A DNA stretch of 24,193 bases from a virus (IMGVR_UViG_3300025652_000539:1-24193); one strand, 5' to 3'. Shown: positions 1 through 19,898, counted from the stretch's first letter. Program-made: numbers and translations. The notes: generated from the sequence alone by a model not told the origin.

Positions 1-344
1 AAGATATAACCCATGAATCCACCAATAACGGCTATACCGATAATTCTAGCTGTCCAATCTTTAGAGAACATAGATCTGGCACTTTGTATGTCTGCTGTCT
101 CTAGTGCAAACAGATCTACATCAAGTTCTTTCATCTTAATGTCAAAATCATTATCTAATTTCTTAAGTTCTACAAGTTGCTCAGGCGTGGCTTTCTGCAC
201 AGCTTTTTCTACATCTTTAGGAGTGTTCTTGCATCCCAACGCCTGAGAAACCATATTCATTGCCATGCCGCCCATTGGGCCACCTAAGGCAGTTCCGATT
301 GTAGGTGCTACTGCACCTAATACACCTTTTAATAGTTCTTTCAT
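1..344 (-). CDS. Holin-like small membrane protein (partial, runs off the left edge)
   Basis: The reading frame opens at ATG 342-344 and stays open to base 1, giving 114 codons with no stop, so the C-terminus is missing. The start MKELLKGVLGAVAPTIGTAL is followed by a Gly/Ala-rich hydrophobic stretch (about residues 8-37), a charged helical middle (PEQLVELKKLDNDF...MKELDVDLFAL), then KDWTARIIGIAVIGGFMG, where a second membrane segment begins. This layout matches my memory of the phage/gene-transfer-agent holins of the 3-TM family, in which a DWTxR motif precedes the membrane segments. The likely role is inner-membrane permeabilisation at lysis. It follows the cyclase gene after a 31-base gap and has its own upstream copy of the TTGACR-N9-TGCAACTTAC element. 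AAAGG lies only one base before the ATG, closer than usual. The family call is by resemblance and is moderate. Confidence 0.6.
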   Translation of the reverse strand, partial: MKELLKGVLGAVAPTIGTALGGPMGGMAMNMVSQALGCKNTPKDVEKAVQKATPEQLVELKKLDNDFDIKMKELDVDLFALETADIQSARSMFSKDWTARIIGIAVIGGFMGYI

Positions 345-348
345 CCTT

Positions 349-379
349 TAATTTGTAAGTTGCAAATCGTAAACGTCAA
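349..379 (-). promoter_or_regulatory. Bipartite promoter-like element, copy 3
   Basis: On the minus strand this reads TTGACG, nine bases, then TGCAACTTAC. Copies 1 (22024-22054) and 2 (8141-8171) have the same two blocks at the same spacing. The TTGAC block overlaps the TGA stop of the cyclase gene (376-378). TTGACG resembles a sigma-70 -35 box. The region 16-17 bases downstream, TACAAAT, is only a poor -10. It differs from the other copies by lacking GGTCTT after TTAC. The holin-like start codon is only 5 bases downstream of the element. If this is a sigma-70-type promoter, the mRNA would be nearly leaderless. Confidence 0.5.
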
Positions 380-2151
380 CTTGTGTAGGTATAAATTTTT
401 ATTTTTTCTTCTTTCCCTTTAACCTGTATTTCATCTACATAGTCAAAGATCATATCGTCTACACCTTTAATTGTTTCTAAAGGAAATAGGGTGTTGGCTT
501 CGTAGTTCCTAGTTTGTCCTTCTAACCTGGCACCTAGATTAACGGCATCGCCTATAACTGATAGATCCATTCTCAATTCTGAACCCATGCCACCTACTAT
601 GGCATTACCTGTAGAAATGCCAGTACCTACAGCTATTAATGGCAAACCTTTAGCCTGATACTCTTCTGCAATTATCTTTGCTTCTGCTTCTATGGCTCTA
701 CCTGCCAACAATGCCTTTGTTCTGTGGTCTTCACATGGAATGGGATAGTTCCACCAGGCCATGATGCAATCACCCATGTATTTATCTATGGTGGCACCGT
801 TAGCCAATAGTATGTTTGTCATTCTGTCTAAAAAATTATTAATTAGATCTACAAGATCTTCTGGGTTATCTTTGTGTGCTTCTGATATAGGGGTAAACCC
901 AACAATGTCCATGAAAAGGAACGACATTTCTTTACGCTCTCCGCCTAGTTTCATTAGTCCAGGATCTTTGATAATCATATCTACATACTCAGGCGATAAG
1001 TAAGTTTTAAACTGGTCGCGAATCTGCTGTCTTAACTTGTACTGTTCTCTAAATCGTAAGTAATAAGAAACACTGCCTGCAATAAAAGATCCTATCAATG
1101 TCCAGGTAACATCTAATAATATGCCTGCCTGGATTAACCAATGCCCACACCAGGCAAGCGCAAAAAGGCTTGATATGGTTAATACTAGGCCAAGGCTCAT
1201 GCTTAGTTTCTTCGTTAGAAGCCAAATACAGAGGACGAAAATTAGAAAAATAGCAATTTCTGCGCCTAAATGCCATTCTGGGATCCTGGGAGAGTTAGGC
1301 AGTAATATTGATTCAGCCAGGGCGGCTTGTAAGAAATGACTGTTGATTAATCCAACTGGTGTTGAGATCTGCCCAAGTCCACCTGCGCTAGATCCTATGA
1401 TTACGTATTTATCCTGGGCGGCTTCTAAGTTGTCTAGGCTAATCACTTCTGTATCTACGTAGCTTACCCACTTACGCATTAGCGGATCTACTGATATAGA
1501 TGGTAGTGATGGTATACGTATCTCACCATCAGTCATATTTATAATGTAAGTGTCCTGGCCTGTAAGTTGTTTAAGGATCTCTAGTGCCATACTTGGTGCA
1601 AAGCCGTCTGGTGTTCTTAGTAACAAAGGGATCTGTCTTACTAAACCATCTACATCTGTAGGTGCGGATGCTACGCCTTGGGCGGCACTTTGTTTTAATA
1701 GATCTATGTTTTCTATAACGCCTCTAGCCTGGTATCCATTTCCTAGATCTTCACCAAGTACAACTGTGCCAACCGTAGGTGGGAAGGTGTCACTGCTTGC
1801 GCTTTCAAATACTGACAAGACAGAAGGGCCGTAACTTAACGCCTCTGCAAATGCTACATCACCACCCAATCTATCTGGTTGCGGAAATGCAAACGCCCAG
1901 GCTTGTCCATAACTGCCAGCTTCTAATAATTTAATTTGTAGATCTGCTAGATCTTTTCTAGGTAAAGGCCAACCACCAAGATCTTCAAGATCCTTTTCTG
2001 TTATGTCCAAAACAACAAAGTTACCTGTAGGATCTTGTTTGGGTATAAACGCATCAAAGGTTTTAAGTTTTAAGATCTCTAGCGGTGTTACCTGAAACAA
2101 TAAAGGTAATATTAGGCATGTTAGTAGGGTAGGGAATATTAGTCTCTTCAT
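376..2151 (-). CDS. CHASE2-domain class III adenylate cyclase, membrane-bound
   Basis: This 591-residue protein has an N-terminal membrane anchor (about 5-21), an extracytoplasmic CHASE2 sensor domain (about 25-290), three further membrane helices (about 296-313, 318-335, 343-362), then a cytoplasmic class III cyclase domain (about 400-585). The catalytic set looks complete: metal-binding Asp415 (FLFMDIVGF) and Asp461 (DKYMGDCIMAWW), purine-reading Lys457 and Asp529, and transition-state Asn538 and Arg542 (VIGDAVNLGARLE). The Lys/Asp pair predicts ATP rather than GTP as substrate, so the product should be cAMP. The start overlaps the FecR gene stop as TAATG, implying coupled translation. Bacterial genomes often pair FecR-domain proteins with CHASE2 cyclases, so the two probably act together, with the FecR protein or its ligand outside and cAMP inside. 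It is unusual in a phage and shows no sign of decay. Confidence 0.88.
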   Translation of the reverse strand: MKRLIFPTLLTCLILPLLFQVTPLEILKLKTFDAFIPKQDPTGNFVVLDITEKDLEDLGGWPLPRKDLADLQIKLLEAGSYGQAWAFAFPQPDRLGGDVAFAEALSYGPSVLSVFESASSDTFPPTVGTVVLGEDLGNGYQARGVIENIDLLKQSAAQGVASAPTDVDGLVRQIPLLLRTPDGFAPSMALEILKQLTGQDTYIINMTDGEIRIPSLPSISVDPLMRKWVSYVDTEVISLDNLEAAQDKYVIIGSSAGGLGQISTPVGLINSHFLQAALAESILLPNSPRIPEWHLGAEIAIFLIFVLCIWLLTKKLSMSLGLVLTISSLFALAWCGHWLIQAGILLDVTWTLIGSFIAGSVSYYLRFREQYKLRQQIRDQFKTYLSPEYVDMIIKDPGLMKLGGERKEMSFLFMDIVGFTPISEAHKDNPEDLVDLINNFLDRMTNILLANGATIDKYMGDCIMAWWNYPIPCEDHRTKALLAGRAIEAEAKIIAEEYQAKGLPLIAVGTGISTGNAIVGGMGSELRMDLSVIGDAVNLGARLEGQTRNYEANTLFPLETIKGVDDMIFDYVDEIQVKGKEEKIKIYTYTS

Positions 2152-3266
2152 TAATTTCCTTGCCTTATTTTGATTGCATTTGATGATCCACCGTTGATTT
2201 TTACGACATTCTCTACGCCATCTTGTATAAGAATTAACGTATAAGCACCAGAACCGTCAACATCTAACCTAAAACTGTTACCTACAGATCTAAATAAGCT
2301 AATTTGTTGTCCTGTTATGATCGTTGTAATTTGTGTATCTTTATCTTGTCCAATATTAGTACCACTTATTTTGATGCCTGTAGCCACTTGATCTAGTGTG
2401 TCTTCTTCATCAGCTATAGCCAAAGCATCAATAATGTTTAATAGATCTTCTAAAAAATTTACGTCTAGGTAATTTATATCCAGTTCTGTAAATTCTAAAG
2501 TTTCAGTATTATCTAAAAAGTCTTCTGCTAAGAAATCTACATCTAAGCCGTCAAAGTCTAAATAGTCTGCTGTGTTTTGTTGTTGATCTTCCTCTATATA
2601 ATCTTTATTTCTACTAGGTGGGGTAATAATCATCATGTTATCTATCATGTCTAAAGTGAGATCTAAAATGACAGGTGGTGAAGGTTTTTGATAATAAGTA
2701 ATGGCAGTTGTAGCCTGGAAGGGTTGATTTAAAACAACCTGTCCTATAGCCGTCTCTACCACTATTTCACCACTACTATTACCAAACTCATCAGGCAATA
2801 GAACAAAAAGTGAAGAACCCTCTTCGCGTGTAGTCACAGAAAAGTTTGTACCTCGCACATAAACATCTGCACTAGGTGTTTTTATACGTATAGCTTTCTT
2901 GTTATTAAATTTACCTGTTAAAAACCTTGCACTACCAGAAGCAAAACGTAAGGCCATTTCTGATTTGTTAGGATCTGGATCATAAATATACTTAGTAATT
3001 TTTAAACGGCTATGATCCATGACACGCACTTGCGTTTCATCTTCAAAAGTAATTTGTACTCTACCGCGTTGCGTTTTTACATCGTCAAGCTGTTGTATAG
3101 CAAAATCTATTTCTGCGCCATACGGTTTATCTCTTACTACTTGAGCATTGCCGTTAAGTTCGCTTATGTTCCCAATACTAGCAAGAGGTACTGGTACCGC
3201 CGTCACTCTGAACGACACAGATGCTAGAAGTACCAGTGCCGCTAGATATAATTTTAAGCCAATCAT
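2151..3266 (-). CDS. Secreted FecR-domain protein with acidic Leu-Asp repeats and curlin-like C-terminus
   Basis: This 371-residue protein starts with a Sec signal peptide (residues 1-23, likely cut after VTA). A FecR domain follows (about 30-190), recognisable by its opening pattern, the DETQVRVMDHSRLKI strand and the late PSADVYVRGTNFSV signature. Residues 234-277 hold two acidic imperfect repeats built on Leu-Asp (DYLDFDGLDVDFLAEDFLDN and the ELDINYLDVNFLEDLL region). Residues 319-371 look like curlin repeats: GNSF, IQDGVEN and IRQGN at regular spacing. This suggests that the tail can co-assemble with, or bind, the curlin-like product of the preceding gene. It has no anti-sigma-type cytoplasmic domain, so it is not a classical iron regulator. 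The first 89 bases overlap the end of the curlin gene in another frame, and the end overlaps the cyclase start. FecR call strong; curlin-tail call moderate. Confidence 0.78.
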   Translation of the reverse strand: MIGLKLYLAALVLLASVSFRVTAVPVPLASIGNISELNGNAQVVRDKPYGAEIDFAIQQLDDVKTQRGRVQITFEDETQVRVMDHSRLKITKYIYDPDPNKSEMALRFASGSARFLTGKFNNKKAIRIKTPSADVYVRGTNFSVTTREEGSSLFVLLPDEFGNSSGEIVVETAIGQVVLNQPFQATTAITYYQKPSPPVILDLTLDMIDNMMIITPPSRNKDYIEEDQQQNTADYLDFDGLDVDFLAEDFLDNTETLEFTELDINYLDVNFLEDLLNIIDALAIADEEDTLDQVATGIKISGTNIGQDKDTQITTIITGQQISLFRSVGNSFRLDVDGSGAYTLILIQDGVENVVKINGGSSNAIKIRQGN

Positions 3267-3891
3267 TATTTAAAGTAGATTGTTGTTCTATAGAAAATGT
3301 ACGGTCTGAACCATCATGTTCTAAATGAAAGAAGCCATTAGATGCACCATCACCGTCATAAGTTAATGTGTTATCAGATCCATCAAAATCAACATAATTT
3401 GTAGCTAGATCTATATCTATAGCGGCTGTAATTGAGTTACTAGATCCATTTATTATCCAATCTAAATCTAAATTACTAGCCTGCGCCGCGTTAGCCTGGT
3501 TAAGCGTAAATTGATTACTATTACCTGTAACATCTACATTTATATTTGATGAATCTGCATTGTAAGTATTTGTAGGATCTACACTTGTATTAAACGTATT
3601 TGAATCGCCGTCAAATTCATAAAATCCCACAAAAGAGTCACCAATTATCTTTCCTAACCATTTATTAGAATCACCAATCTGGTTTATATCTAATGTAGCT
3701 ATATTTGATGTAAATTGAAACGCTGTAAGATCTCCTGCTGTACTACCCGCGCCACCAATAATGTTTCCTGTTCCTAATTGTTCCAGGTCTATACTTGCGG
3801 CTCCTGTTGATCCAACCTGGTTGATCCAAATTTCGTTATCATTTGCTAGCAAGGGTGTAGATAATATTAATAATATAATTAGTTTTTTCAT
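3178..3891 (-). CDS. Secreted curlin-repeat (amyloid-like) protein
   Basis: A 237-residue protein with a clear signal peptide (MKKLIILLILSTPLLA, cut before NDNE). The mature part is rich in Asn, Gly, Ser, Asp and Thr and holds degenerate curlin repeats of the S/I-x5-Q-x-G-x-x-N type: IWINQVGSTGAASIDLEQLG, IATLDINQIGDSN, VDVTGNSNQFTLNQ, WIINGSSNSITAAI, VDFDGSDNTLTYDGDGASN. It ends with Cys225 and Cys237, which could form a disulfide. It is more acidic and less regular than E. coli CsgA/CsgB, so it may be a fibre subunit, a nucleator or a CsgG cargo of another kind. It starts by an ATGA overlap with csgG, with GAGG eight bases upstream, which fits export through that pore. Its last 28 codons overlap the signal-peptide region of the FecR gene. 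Confidence 0.7.
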   Translation of the reverse strand: MKKLIILLILSTPLLANDNEIWINQVGSTGAASIDLEQLGTGNIIGGAGSTAGDLTAFQFTSNIATLDINQIGDSNKWLGKIIGDSFVGFYEFDGDSNTFNTSVDPTNTYNADSSNINVDVTGNSNQFTLNQANAAQASNLDLDWIINGSSNSITAAIDIDLATNYVDFDGSDNTLTYDGDGASNGFFHLEHDGSDRTFSIEQQSTLNNDWLKIISSGTGTSSICVVQSDGGTSTSC

Positions 3892-4709
3892 TCTTTATAC
3901 CTCCATAAATTAAGTGTTACACCCTCGTTTATAGTTGCCAGTACAGCACTCTCTATTGCTATTTGTAGTGCCACTGACATTGGTTCATTTGCTACAGAGC
4001 CACCTTCCATTTCTATCAATTCGGTGCCTTCGCTAATAAACCTAAATACATCGTTATCTAAAGATGCTGAAAACAACGTCTTAGTAACTAAAACTTCTGT
4101 TATAACTTTGCCTGTACTTACTGAAACTGTGCGTAAGCTTAATGTTATTTGATCTCTTCTTATTTGACGATTTGCGCCCACTGATAGCCACCTAATCCCC
4201 AGACCTGACGATTCAATATTTGCTTCATAAGATAGGACGGATCCAACCATGATGAGATCTGCGAAAACGAGCGGCATAAGCTGTGTATCTTCGTTAAATG
4301 TATCTCTGGTAGATCTAATTAACTGCCTTTCTTTAGTTACTGCATCTAAGGACACTCTTTCTACTACATCAAAGAAGTTAGAATGTTTTAGTGCGCGTAT
4401 TAGATAGGCGTGTGGTGCCTGGGTTAGTGCTGTACTAAATGTAGCGTATTTAGAATTAGATCTTCTTTGTCCTGTTTGATCTGTAAAATCATAAACGGCA
4501 ATAACAGGTTTTCTAACTGGCTCTTGTACATTTGCCAACTCTGTATGCAATGTCTGTAACTGTGCATCTTCTATGTACTCTATGGGTGGAAGATTATTTT
4601 CTAGGGGATCAATCATTAGACTGCAACTAGAAACCAAAACCGCCAATAGGCACAACCACAGTAGTTTCAGTGCCATCCTCTGAAATGATTGTAACTCTAA
4701 CTTCATCAT
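3888..4709 (-). CDS. csgG: CsgG-like outer-membrane curli secretion pore lipoprotein
   Basis: A 273-codon frame whose likely true start is Met12 (base 4676), which gives a lipoprotein signal MALKLLWLCLLAVLVSSC with acylated Cys29. From about residue 67 the protein matches CsgG in order: VIAVYDFTDQTGQRRSNSKY, FSTALTQAPHAYLIRALKHS, FDVVERVSLDAVTKERQLIR, ADLIMVGSVLSYEANIESSG, LRTVSVSTGKVITEV, then FRFISEG and NEPMSVALQIAIESAVLATI. CsgG forms a nonameric outer-membrane pore that exports curlin from the periplasm. The full-length match suggests a working pore. The gene overlaps csgF upstream and joins the curlin-like gene by ATGA, as expected for a pore, accessory and cargo operon. No CsgE or CsgD is visible. 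Family call strong; start codon uncertain, since no well-spaced ribosome site favours either Met. Confidence 0.9.
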   Translation of the reverse strand: MMKLELQSFQRMALKLLWLCLLAVLVSSCSLMIDPLENNLPPIEYIEDAQLQTLHTELANVQEPVRKPVIAVYDFTDQTGQRRSNSKYATFSTALTQAPHAYLIRALKHSNFFDVVERVSLDAVTKERQLIRSTRDTFNEDTQLMPLVFADLIMVGSVLSYEANIESSGLGIRWLSVGANRQIRRDQITLSLRTVSVSTGKVITEVLVTKTLFSASLDNDVFRFISEGTELIEMEGGSVANEPMSVALQIAIESAVLATINEGVTLNLWRYKE

Positions 4710-5091
4710 CTGTTATCTCGTATTCAATTAAATTGCCGTCTAATTCCATAGATCCGCTAGTGCGTGGATCTTCACCAAACAAGGCATCTTCTATTCTTTT
4801 TGAAATGTTGGCATAGATACGACTGGTGAGATTCCGCATAAACCTTGCTTCTACAGTGTTATTTTGTTCGCGCTCTATTTCGTCTTGTAATGCCTGGATC
4901 TCCTCACGTAAGGCTTTTTTTCTATTTGCTTCAGTTTGTTCTATAAAAAAGTAATGATTAGACGTACCCACACCGCTAAAAGAAGGTGATTTAAACTCAT
5001 GCACCATTTCATCAGCCTGTACTATCTGAAACACCAGGACAAAAAAGATAATGTTTACAAGCAATAATTTAACTTCTGTATTGCCCATCAA
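4627..5091 (-). CDS. csgF: CsgF-like curli assembly factor
   Basis: A 154-residue secreted protein with a signal peptide ending IVQA before DEMVHEF. The mature N-terminus, MVHEFKSPSFSGVGTSNHYF, matches the conserved CsgF start (F-x-NP-x-FGG pattern) that plugs into the CsgG channel. A central charged helix follows (about residues 52-77), then a helix ARFMRNLTSRIYANISKRI, and a C-terminal strand region (MELDGNLIEYEITDDEVRVT...TETTVVVPIGGF) like the CsgF tail. In E. coli, CsgF sits at the outer mouth of CsgG and holds the nucleator at the surface. It overlaps the 116-residue membrane gene by ATGA and csgG by 83 bases (50 if csgG starts at Met12). It is longer than E. coli CsgF mainly because of the charged helix. 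Confidence 0.82.
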   Translation of the reverse strand: MMGNTEVKLLLVNIIFFVLVFQIVQADEMVHEFKSPSFSGVGTSNHYFFIEQTEANRKKALREEIQALQDEIEREQNNTVEARFMRNLTSRIYANISKRIEDALFGEDPRTSGSMELDGNLIEYEITDDEVRVTIISEDGTETTVVVPIGGFGF

Positions 5092-5438
5092 TCCCTTCTT
5101 TGATCTTCTTTTTGTGCCTTAGTTATTTCGTTGGTGTCTATCAACTCTGGCATCTTTACTAAGGTCTTTAGTAACACATCATTTCTTATAAGTGATTGGT
5201 CTATCATTCTTACCCTATCAATCAAGCTGACTATAATCCCATATTGTGAATCTAGTTTTGTTGTTAGCCTTTCTTCCATCGTATCAAGGCTTGCTTGCAC
5301 CTTATCATCTAGGACATCTACCTTCTCAGTCATGCCGTCAATGATCTTAAATATAAGTTTATAAAGAAAGAACCCTACAGCTACAAGTGCCGCAGTAGGA
5401 ACCCCCAATTCTGAGATAATAAGAACCGCATCATCCAT
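5088..5438 (-). CDS. Membrane-anchored coiled-coil protein, possible lysis accessory
   Basis: I do not recognise a named family. The 116 residues begin with one hydrophobic segment (about 12-33, GVPTAALVAVGFFLYKLIF). A long amphipathic helix follows, likely a coiled coil (about 35-95, KVDVLDDKVQASLDTMEERL and SLIDRVRMIDQSLIRNDVL). The tail is charged and ends QRRD. This layout, one N-terminal anchor plus a rod, is seen in phage holin-associated proteins and i-spanins, but it gives no proof. It lies between the XhlA-like gene and csgF and shares an ATGA overlap with csgF, so it is translated with both groups. It might belong to the curli cassette rather than to lysis. Confidence 0.6.
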   Translation of the reverse strand: MDDAVLIISELGVPTAALVAVGFFLYKLIFKIIDGMTEKVDVLDDKVQASLDTMEERLTTKLDSQYGIIVSLIDRVRMIDQSLIRNDVLLKTLVKMPELIDTNEITKAQKEDQRRD

Positions 5439-17725: not shown

Positions 17726-19807
17726 TTAAACAGTAATATCCTTAATCGCCGCGAAAGCGTTAGGTATTCTTACTGCAACATCAACATCTTGGAAAAACGC
17801 AATTCTAGTTCCACCAGAAGTGCTTAATGTTGAACTATCAACAACTACATCAACACCTGACCAGAATCCCATCATTACTTGGCTAAAGTCACCTAAGATA
17901 AGTGCATGGCAAGTACCTGAAGTAGATCCTTTAGTTAAGTTACTAGGTACGTTAGTTGAAACAGTTACGTTGTGTCCTAAGATAGAGTTGCTATCGTTTA
18001 GGATAAAGTTACCTTCAACACCTGAACCCTGTCTAGGTATTTGTCTCATTGCACCTTGTACTCCAGGAGTCGTTGCAAAGTTTAAAGTACCAGTTAAAGC
18101 ATTATCAGCCGCTATAGCCGCTTCCATGTCTACAACTTTGGCATAAGTGATTGCACCACCATTAGTGTTAATAGCAACTACATTAGTGTCAGACTCTTGC
18201 AAAATGCCTGAAGGTTCATTTGAAGCCCCACCATTTAGAGCAACTTGGTCTATCTTAGAAGCCATAGTTTGAACTATGTCATTTCTAAGTATTTGCTCAA
18301 CAGATGGATCCGATTGCAATGCTAGTTTTCTTGTGTAGTCAACGTATGTAGCTAAAGTCTTAGGTGCCATTGTGACTTGCGCGAAAGTCGCCGCGCCTTC
18401 AGTTGGGCTTCCACCTTCACTGACGAAGGCTGTGTTAGTTACAGATGCAGATAGCTTTGGAATCGCTATATCACCTTGTAAACCAGTCATAACTCTGCCG
18501 CCTAATTGTGCAACTACTGAGTTAGCATAAACTTCACCAATGAACTCATTAGCCAGGTGTTCTGTTCCTTTCAAGAAACCACCTTGTGAGTTAGTGCCAA
18601 CAGTTTGATCCCTTTGCCCCCAACCTATGTCCATAGGTAGGTAGAAACCTCTAGCTTCTTTACCAGTTCTAGAAGCGATTTCATTTGAAATCTCTCTTTC
18701 TAGTCCTGCTTTTGACCAGTCACCGCTTGATGCCGCTCTAATCGCATTTAAAAAAGAATAACTGCCTCTTTCTCTGTCGTTTAGTCCAACTTCTGCTACT
18801 GGTGTTTCTAGTGGCTTATCGTCTGCTATTTGATTAAGAAGGATCCCTCTAAATTGCTCTAGAGAATGTCCTTCCGCTATTGATACATCAGCTAAATCAC
18901 GTTTGTGGTGTTTAGTAGCTAATGCAAGTATTTCCTTTGCTTCTTTAGCAACTTCAGATCTAACGCTTACTGCGGTTTCAGATCTAACAGCTTCTAAATC
19001 AACTTCTGGAGTTTTATTTTCTTCCATTTTCTTTTCCTTTATAGAATTGTTTATTAAAACAGGGGCTTCCACCTCTGCACTATCTTTTGACCTGGCAACA
19101 CCCACCATAGGGTTTGTATCAGCAGGCAATGAAACTAAGCTTGCTTCCATAGGAGTCCAGTTGGCCCTATAGGTTGTATCTTCCGCAGATTCGTCTCTTA
19201 CCATAGAGTTGATTCTGTAGCCGACACTAACTGAACGCTTAATACCGTCCAAAACATCGTTCCACGTTTCTTGTGCTAGTTCACTTCTTCCGAAGCGCAC
19301 CGTTGCTAATGTCCTATTAGTAGCACCGTCTAAATTAAAATCCTCAACAATACCTACTTGCCTAGTCGTATCATGGTCTAGCAAAACAGGCATATTGCCG
19401 CTTCTTGCCCAACTCATATCAACTGAGCCAGGGGAATGGTCAAGCACCTCCATTCCAAAACTACGTTCCACAGGTTCTTCAGAAGAAAGAGCAATGCGGA
19501 CGGTTCTTTTATCCTCATTTATCATTTCTGCCCTAGATAGATCTATAGAACGATAGTTTGTTTCGTCTTTGTCAAAACGCTTTTCCTCGTCTTCATCCTC
19601 GCCGTATGCGTTTTCTTCTATTTCTTCAACTTGTTCTGCTTTCGCAAATTTAACATTGATAGAATTAGCATCTTCTTCTACAGCTAGTATGTGACGTTCT
19701 TCGGTTCTTTCGTCCATATCTGTTTCCTCGGATTTAAGTTCTAAATTTAAGCCGTTAGGCTCCCTATTTGCAGATGGATCAACATCTGTAAATTCTTTTT
19801 TATTCAT
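17726..19807 (-). CDS. Fused prohead protease, scaffold and HK97-fold major capsid protein
   Basis: I choose ATG 19805-19807 as the start because AAGGGG stands at proper distance; an in-frame ATG at 19829-19831 would add eight residues. Numbered from that upstream Met, residues 30-95 are very acidic. Residues about 105-240 are an HK97-type (S78) prohead protease: RSFGMEVLDHSPGSVDMS, catalytic His153 in PVLLDHD, Ser200/Ser202 in GIKRSVSVGY, Glu229 in TPMEASLVSLPA. Residues 269-355 form a helical scaffold-like delta domain. Residues 355-701 are the capsid protein (YSFLNAIRAASSGDWSKAGL; SVEQILRNDIVQTMASKIDQ; HALILGDFSQVMMGFWSGVD; VAVRIPNAFAAIKDI). Protease, scaffold and coat are usually separate genes. 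Here the fusion must be cut, or the coat made from the internal start at 19027. Confidence 0.88.
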   Translation of the reverse strand: MNKKEFTDVDPSANREPNGLNLELKSEETDMDERTEERHILAVEEDANSINVKFAKAEQVEEIEENAYGEDEDEEKRFDKDETNYRSIDLSRAEMINEDKRTVRIALSSEEPVERSFGMEVLDHSPGSVDMSWARSGNMPVLLDHDTTRQVGIVEDFNLDGATNRTLATVRFGRSELAQETWNDVLDGIKRSVSVGYRINSMVRDESAEDTTYRANWTPMEASLVSLPADTNPMVGVARSKDSAEVEAPVLINNSIKEKKMEENKTPEVDLEAVRSETAVSVRSEVAKEAKEILALATKHHKRDLADVSIAEGHSLEQFRGILLNQIADDKPLETPVAEVGLNDRERGSYSFLNAIRAASSGDWSKAGLEREISNEIASRTGKEARGFYLPMDIGWGQRDQTVGTNSQGGFLKGTEHLANEFIGEVYANSVVAQLGGRVMTGLQGDIAIPKLSASVTNTAFVSEGGSPTEGAATFAQVTMAPKTLATYVDYTRKLALQSDPSVEQILRNDIVQTMASKIDQVALNGGASNEPSGILQESDTNVVAINTNGGAITYAKVVDMEAAIAADNALTGTLNFATTPGVQGAMRQIPRQGSGVEGNFILNDSNSILGHNVTVSTNVPSNLTKGSTSGTCHALILGDFSQVMMGFWSGVDVVVDSSTLSTSGGTRIAFFQDVDVAVRIPNAFAAIKDITV
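19025..19040 (-). promoter_or_regulatory. Internal ribosome site and ATG for a separate capsid protein
   Basis: Within the fusion gene the minus strand reads AAAGGA, seven bases, then ATG at 19025-19027, codon 269. A product starting here would be 433 residues: scaffold delta domain plus HK97 coat, the usual size of an HK97-type capsid precursor. The junction lies between the protease end and the helical domain. The arrangement recalls lambda C/Nu3, where an internal in-frame start makes the scaffold alone. It would supply many capsid chains per protease. Confidence 0.6.
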
Positions 19808-19898
19808 ATCTCGCCCCTTGCAGAACAGCAAAATCCCTTAGTCCTAAAGAAAACAAGACGGTAGAGAGTGCGCCCATCGTCTGTATTTTGCTCAACAT
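19800..19898 (-). CDS. Possible 32-residue overlapping ORF before the capsid fusion
   Basis: The 116 bases between portal and the capsid fusion start hold a reading frame from ATG 19896-19898 to TAA 19800-19802: MLSKIQTMGALSTVLFSLGL then RDFAVLQGARYE. It has a hydrophobic middle and overlaps the first codons of the capsid fusion. AGGTGG lies about 14 bases upstream, rather far for a ribosome site. It could be a leader peptide that couples portal and capsid translation, a tiny membrane protein, or chance. Confidence 0.25.
   Translation of the reverse strand: MLSKIQTMGALSTVLFSLGLRDFAVLQGARYE

Follow-up and report, generated by a model that had tools for sequence, protein, structure and literature searches.

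The 24,193-base IMG/VR virus record IMGVR_UViG_3300025652_000539 (hereafter the window, the whole stretch analysed) is an incomplete genome that carries, at its contig edge, a cassette of five overlapping minus-strand genes (5088-376) for CsgF, CsgG, a curlin-like protein (CURL), a FecR-domain protein and a CHASE2 class III cyclase (CYC). The phage probably carries it as a type VIII (curli-type) secretion system to which a FecR-CHASE2-cyclase arm for sensing is attached, and expresses it along with the late genes; the domains, catalytic residues, conserved gene order and strongly conserved cargo support this reading. The gene set has already been published from other ocean phages, and the window is a new carrier lineage. 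The initial annotation of this DNA was mistaken in holding that a pore with cargo, FecR partner and cyclase was undescribed as one phage system, as Wittmers 2022 (PMC9599517) and the cultured phages HTVC008M and Melnitz have the same set. Viral curli modules are known from published work to be widespread in the ocean. The joint switch of FecR domain and cyclase described below amounts to a natural experiment: it singles out one specific protein pair and shows which half of the putative FecR adaptor accompanies which machine.

Gene products of the cassette

All five genes lie on one strand, as first annotated, and are complete. Their identities are borne out by Pfam for four (CsgF, CsgG, FecR, and CHASE2 with Guanylate_cyc were all matched) and supported by profile comparison for CURL.

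4627..5088, minus strand: CsgF, pore partner (PF10614, E=2.5e-17)
3888..4709, minus strand: CsgG, outer-membrane lipoprotein pore, 273 aa (PF03783, E=8e-46)
3178..3891, minus strand: CURL, secreted curlin-like protein, 237 aa (orthologue alignment, beta-solenoid model, hhalign)
2151..3266, minus strand: FecR-domain protein, 371 aa (PF04773, E=3e-14; phrog_37870 over the full length)
376..2151, minus strand: CYC, CHASE2-transmembrane-class III adenylate cyclase (predicted), 591 aa (Pfam CHASE2, E=5e-29; Guanylate_cyc, 5e-12)

The ATGA and TAATG couplings between the genes are confirmed, and the sequence shows both the signal peptides and the lipobox of CsgG (LVSSC). CsgG aligns with the E. coli CsgG structures 3x2r, 4q79 and 6l7a (E=1.4e-40) with the pore region covered; an alternative start is possible at Met12 (4676). 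The csgF gene stands as initially annotated, except for its start, for which ATG 5088 (TGATG overlap) is more likely than the TTG at 5091. In an alignment the mature N-terminus of CsgF, DEMVHEFKSPSFSG...H, is its best conserved part. The N-terminal residues of E. coli CsgF line the CsgG lumen (PMC7304575), and the CsgF of the window has a conserved N-terminus predicted to bind CsgG. A search of PDB profiles with CsgF returned chance matches only.

CURL is strongly conserved, with a mean column identity of 75% in the alignment and an invariant pair of C-terminal cysteines (225 and 237). Its description as a curlin-repeat protein has support at the level of profiles and fold, not from a direct Pfam match. 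By hhalign the CURL profile pairs at 96.8% with the second curlins of HTVC008M and Melnitz, both of which pass the PF07012 cut-off, and 4 of 28 CURL orthologues reach PF07012, weakly. The AlphaFold2 model is an all-beta solenoid with a predicted local distance difference test score (pLDDT) of 81. Foldseek returned nothing below E=0.3 with this model and VIA-align returned generic beta-solenoids (SufB/SufD at Z 17, lyases and tailspikes); because these matches are generic, the model is used for fold class alone. Antibody matches of CURL in a search of PDB profiles were judged to be due to chance.

Two further observations concern the curlins. The end of CURL, with the invariant cysteine pair, and the FecR signal peptide share 89 bases in different frames (window 3178-3266), an overlap maintained in most relatives. 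In HTVC008M (locus L002) the second curlin, gp018 (L002:7639-8964), deposited as a hypothetical protein, has a PA14 domain (PF07691, E=2.7e-6) fused to curlin repeats (PF07012, E=5e-8).

The FecR-domain protein consists of a signal peptide, the FecR domain (61-155) and a conserved C-terminal tail (about 285-371). Curlin repeats are suggested in the tail by eye, but it gives no PF07012 match. Related FecR proteins occupy over 580 places in one collection. Among 84,980 prokaryote genomes the subfamily occurs on three contigs only, binned in metagenome-assembled genomes of Pelagibacter and Maricaulis; two of the three carry a phage lysozyme and one a phage tail-fibre match. No bacterial ancestor operon was found by this subfamily search.

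CYC is a predicted adenylate cyclase with a complete set of class III catalytic residues, as had been noted initially: the two metal aspartates (D415, D461), the adenine-selecting Lys/Asp (K457, D529) and the transition-state Asn/Arg (N538, R542). All six have counterparts in the alignment with P. aeruginosa CyaB (3r5g), and 13 of 14 viral homologues keep them.

Among the viral cyclases, two kinds of catalytic domain lie behind similar CHASE2 domains, LFMDIVGFT...MGDCIMAWW in the window, L059 and HTVC008M versus LFTDVRGFT...IGDAMMAIFNAP in L034, L023 and others. The cyclase of L010 is 97% identical to that of the window, though its CsgG is 76% identical. In the Melnitz cyclase (L003:8826-10877) Ser replaces the transition-state Asn and the adenine-selecting Asp is missing; judged from these residues, the enzyme may be inactive or altered.

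Paired inheritance of the FecR domain and the cyclase

Two scans (the best 80 matches of each, so that sampling is by best match) gave about 150 viral loci; 140 were scored after removal of duplicates, 141 with the window. The order of a small upstream gene (TMcc, below), CsgF, CsgG, CURL and FecR is kept across these ~140 loci on siphovirus-, podovirus- and myovirus-type backbones, which bears out the initial expectation that the genes are inherited together and recur in this order in other phages. The cyclase arm is optional, since it is absent from 26 of the 141 loci. The FecR domain is of type I in all 115 cyclase-bearing loci and of type II, recognised by the motif ETAxGRMGITF noticed in the same data, in all 26 cyclase-free loci.

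Cyclase presence changes once on the tree of the FecR domain, six times on that of the FecR tail and 17 times on each of the CsgG and CURL trees. The FecR type changes along with the cyclase in all 11 independent supported pairs on the CsgG tree (p=0.001) and in all 7 on the CURL tree (p=0.016). When CsgG is at least 93% identical, the FecR domains of two loci are at least 0.91 identical if their cyclase status is the same (158 pairs) and at most 0.68 identical if it differs (38 pairs). FecR domain and cyclase go together as a matched pair in these loci, and the initial view that the FecR protein and the cyclase are partners is strengthened.

The comparison of L036 with L049 locates the exchange within the FecR gene. 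CsgG and CURL are 98% and 97% identical, and DNA identity stays at 97-100% across CsgG, CURL and the part encoding the FecR signal peptide. FecR 31-240 then falls to 48-76%, the tail (271-360) returns to 96-98%, and the cyclase is present in only one of the two. The domain and the tail are exchanged separately, and the tail remains with the pore/curlin core.

Mere physical linkage, with a cyclase independent of the secretion system, is an unlikely account of these data. It can draw on the one-base overlap of the FecR and cyclase genes and on the single cyclase change on the FecR-domain tree, but the intervening tail switches partner more often (six changes versus one) and is 92-98% identical in L036/L049 and L042/L049 despite exchange of both the domain and the cyclase. 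Because the tail sits between the two co-switching parts, simple linkage fails for cases of the L036/L049 type. In other pairs (L024/L021) the tail has changed too (74-88%).

Proposed function of the cassette

The best reading of these sequences is late export of a surface fibre, with an optional sensor that would report the state of the envelope or of export through cyclic AMP (cAMP). From what is known of the families, CsgG would form an outer-membrane pore (a nonamer), and CsgF would plug and gate its outer neck, with N-terminal residues lining the lumen. CURL would be exported through the pore and coat the surface of the infected cell. The FecR protein would serve as a two-ended periplasmic adaptor: at one end the domain is paired with the periplasmic CHASE2 of the cyclase and probably binds it, and at the other the tail may attach to the export machinery or pore-curlin core, or be sensed by it. 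If export or the state of the envelope changed, the inhibition by CHASE2 would be lifted and cAMP would rise; the CHASE2-deleted CyaD1 of S. meliloti gives constitutive cAMP (PMC5498481). The most likely benefit would be an altered infected-cell surface, through aggregation or exclusion of other phages. The amyloid coat, rival exclusion and lysis use offered in the initial annotation have all been proposed already in the literature, and the function itself is hypothetical.

More tentatively, the FecR tail may sense the state of the curlin and pore and the domain may set the activity of the CHASE2 cyclase, as a transenvelope adaptor. The cassette could then be viewed as an export machine with a removable cAMP reporter, which would move among unrelated marine phage lineages with its signalling half (FecR domain and cyclase) exchanged apart from its export half.

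Several points weigh against the reading as a fibre-export cassette with a sensing arm. Pfam finds no CsgE gate gene in the cassette; CsgE is likewise absent from the published viral modules (Wittmers 2022, PMC9599517), and in E. coli it is reported to be non-essential for the curli phenotype (Zaragoza-Solas 2020). The CURL of the window stays below the Pfam curlin threshold, with no direct PF07012 match. The AlphaFold2 model of the FecR protein has a pLDDT of 39 and was not used, and the likeness of the FecR tail to curlins is weak (hhalign 3-6%, controls 0.1-0.6%) and is a suggestion only. FecR and cyclase genes are neighbours, so that their association is partly linkage, and the FecR-tail tree offers 5 of 5 pairs only (p=0.06), short of significance. 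Cells infected by Melnitz showed no clumping by transmission electron microscopy and cytometry (PMC9004378). Finally, among 79 sampled genomes of the SAR11 family, a domain binding cyclic nucleotides was found in 4 and in none of the other 75. Because such proteins are rare in this family, which includes the hosts of some carriers, a cAMP receptor in SAR11-type hosts is in doubt.

Phage backbone and site of the cassette

The window comes from a tailed marine phage of the CRP-822 type, and the cassette lies within its late region. A minus-strand run of genes for terminase, lambda-type portal, HK97-type capsid, tail tube, tape measure, tip protein J and S74 fibre leads into the cassette. The genes shared within the CRP-822-type family, namely the small and large terminase subunits (TerS, TerL), portal, major capsid protein and tail genes, are all present in the same order. 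The structural half is collinear with roseophage CRP-821, a member of the family (PMC12629253), at 50% identity for TerL, 47% for the portal and 38% for the major capsid protein. CRP-821 has no cassette, and the main text of the paper on CRP-822-type phages mentions none of curli, Csg, FecR or cyclase (PMC12629253). The cassette is found here in a third phage lineage, where it was previously unreported. The G+C content of the window, 38.7%, is above but near that of subgroup V (35.4 +/- 2.25%; PMC12629253) and nearest the low-G+C members of the family, which are predicted to infect SAR86 (PMC12629253); this is a lead toward SAR86 and not a host assignment. Scans for promoters and terminators found fewer sites than expected by chance.

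Two small genes flank the cassette region:

3..344, minus strand: u01, small membrane protein, probably the holin of the lysis unit with three transmembrane segments (phrog_1544, E=8e-19), cut by the contig end
5440..5622, minus strand: XHL, 60 aa coiled coil with a C-terminal transmembrane segment, a possible lysis accessory, also in the cassette-free relatives L173 and L195

The placement of the cassette between fibre and lysis genes, as initially annotated, is upheld by contig L004, in which u01 is complete (157 aa) and a lysozyme endolysin follows; the same holds in L010 (lysozyme of PF00959). The u01 protein gives no direct Pfam holin match, and the cassette-free relative L181 has PF11351 (GTA_holin_3TM) at its position: there the same upstream gene is followed directly by the PF11351 holin and a lysozyme. 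XHL is assigned to the phage backbone because of its presence in L173 and L195.

This neighbourhood bears on the proposal, already in print for Melnitz (Buchholz et al. 2022, PMC9004378), that the CsgG/CsgF pore is a lysis device, either cooperating with holin and endolysin as a channel in the outer membrane or setting the time of lysis. In 87 of 94 informative loci, drawn from several phage types, a lysozyme gene lies near the cassette (at most 3.5 kb downstream in 75, at most 4.5 kb upstream in 12), and the cassette has holin-like genes at its flanks. The phages, however, retain their own holin and endolysin, the close relative L181 has lysis genes without the cassette, and in HTVC008M the cassette stands beside the tape-measure gene, away from the annotated lysis genes. 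A lysis device would also have no need for a strongly conserved cargo, a FecR protein or a cyclase. We think this proposal improbable.

We give still less credence to the suggestion that the infected cell takes up nutrients or iron chelates through an ungated pore while FecR senses iron (Zaragoza-Solas 2020, Wittmers 2022). The missing CsgE gate and the FecR-domain homology agree with it, but it leaves the conserved curlin cargo and CsgF unexplained. No sigma factor or TonB-type receptor is seen beside FecR, whose domain is partnered here with a cyclase and not with a sigma factor; no extracytoplasmic function sigma factor was found among the cassette genes and the tested neighbours of this incomplete genome. 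That host DNA was joined to the phage by misassembly has practically no probability despite the position at the contig edge and is rejected, as the independent contig L004 is identical to the window over 5,891 bp and continues beyond the cassette into the endolysin, the same junction recurs in the same-backbone relatives L010, L172, L174, L175 and L188, and the gene order is found in ~140 other loci. The initial annotation had named three outcomes that would speak against it, namely no profile match for CsgF and the curlin, genes scattered in relatives, and misassembly; none of them was found.

The site between fibre and lysis genes is an insertion hot spot, because L181 has no cassette there and L173, L195 and L185 have a different module.

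At this site, on the same backbone, L173 (16083-20713), L195 (3866-8470) and L185 (15568-18721) carry another module of secreted proteins, an Asn-rich one of 339-373 aa and one of 719-770 aa. Neither of these large proteins matches a Pfam family above threshold. An SNase nuclease precedes them in L173 and L195, and L185 is without it.

Relation to known systems

The closest system is the type VIII secretion module of pelagiphages. Wittmers 2022 (PMC9599517) treated CsgF, CsgG, CsgA/B, FecR and adenylate cyclase as a single module of podo- and myo-pelagiphages and described its transfer between families and its expression in metatranscriptomes. That survey covered contigs of at least 10 kb and showed modules for Podoviridae and Myoviridae only, the carriers being HTVC023P-type podophages and pelagimyophages; a partial cassette was reported by Zaragoza-Solas 2020. 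The window shares with this module the order CsgF-CsgG-curlin-FecR-cyclase, the tight packing, the small gene before csgF and the lack of csgC/D/E. HTVC008M and Melnitz have the arrangement small gene-csgF-csgG-curlin-FecR-second curlin-cyclase, and thus two curlin genes where the window has one. Identity between the window and HTVC008M is 45% for CsgG and 39% for the cyclase. The window further differs in its CRP-822-type backbone with lambda-like structural genes, in the adjoining holin-endolysin unit, and in its small upstream protein, in which no kinase domain is detected:

5088..5438, minus strand: TMcc, 116 aa, one N-terminal transmembrane segment followed by a coiled coil (phrog_18771)

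TMcc is present in 72 of the first 83 loci, HTVC008M and Melnitz included, and precedes csgF in nearly all loci in which this flank is present; its length varies from 92 to 126 aa. Pfam finds no HisKA or HATPase match in TMcc, and its equivalents in HTVC008M and Melnitz are also without kinase domains. A "histidine kinase" was reported before CsgF (Wittmers 2022, PMC9599517). Since the two occupy the same position, the published kinase is most likely TMcc, a predicted membrane coiled-coil protein without a kinase domain. Our analysis extends the module to a third phage lineage and questions this annotation.

With E. coli curli (csgBAC, csgDEFG) the cassette shares the CsgG pore with its lipobox, the conserved, predicted pore-binding N-terminus of CsgF and a beta-solenoid cargo. 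Unlike E. coli curli it lacks CsgC/D/E and adds FecR and a cyclase, and its curlin repeats are degenerate, with a C-terminal cysteine pair. The "BiofilmReg" FecR-CHASE2 kinase operon of Burkholderiales and P. aeruginosa (PMC5192318) likewise places a secreted FecR-domain protein beside a CHASE2 sensor, but it is bacterial, has a histidine kinase as output and LysM on the FecR protein, and contains no curli genes. The CRP-822-type phages (PMC12629253) share the structural gene order of the window, whereas the cassette is in the window and not in CRP-821.

Two minor observations stand apart from the cassette. An unannotated 1,499-base record deposited as a "Salmonella phage" (OR851715.1) matches CsgG and is probably host csgG DNA. 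The major capsid protein of the window (17726-19831) is 701 aa long, of which residues 424-697 alone make up the capsid domain; the long N-terminal stretch may represent a fused protease or scaffold.

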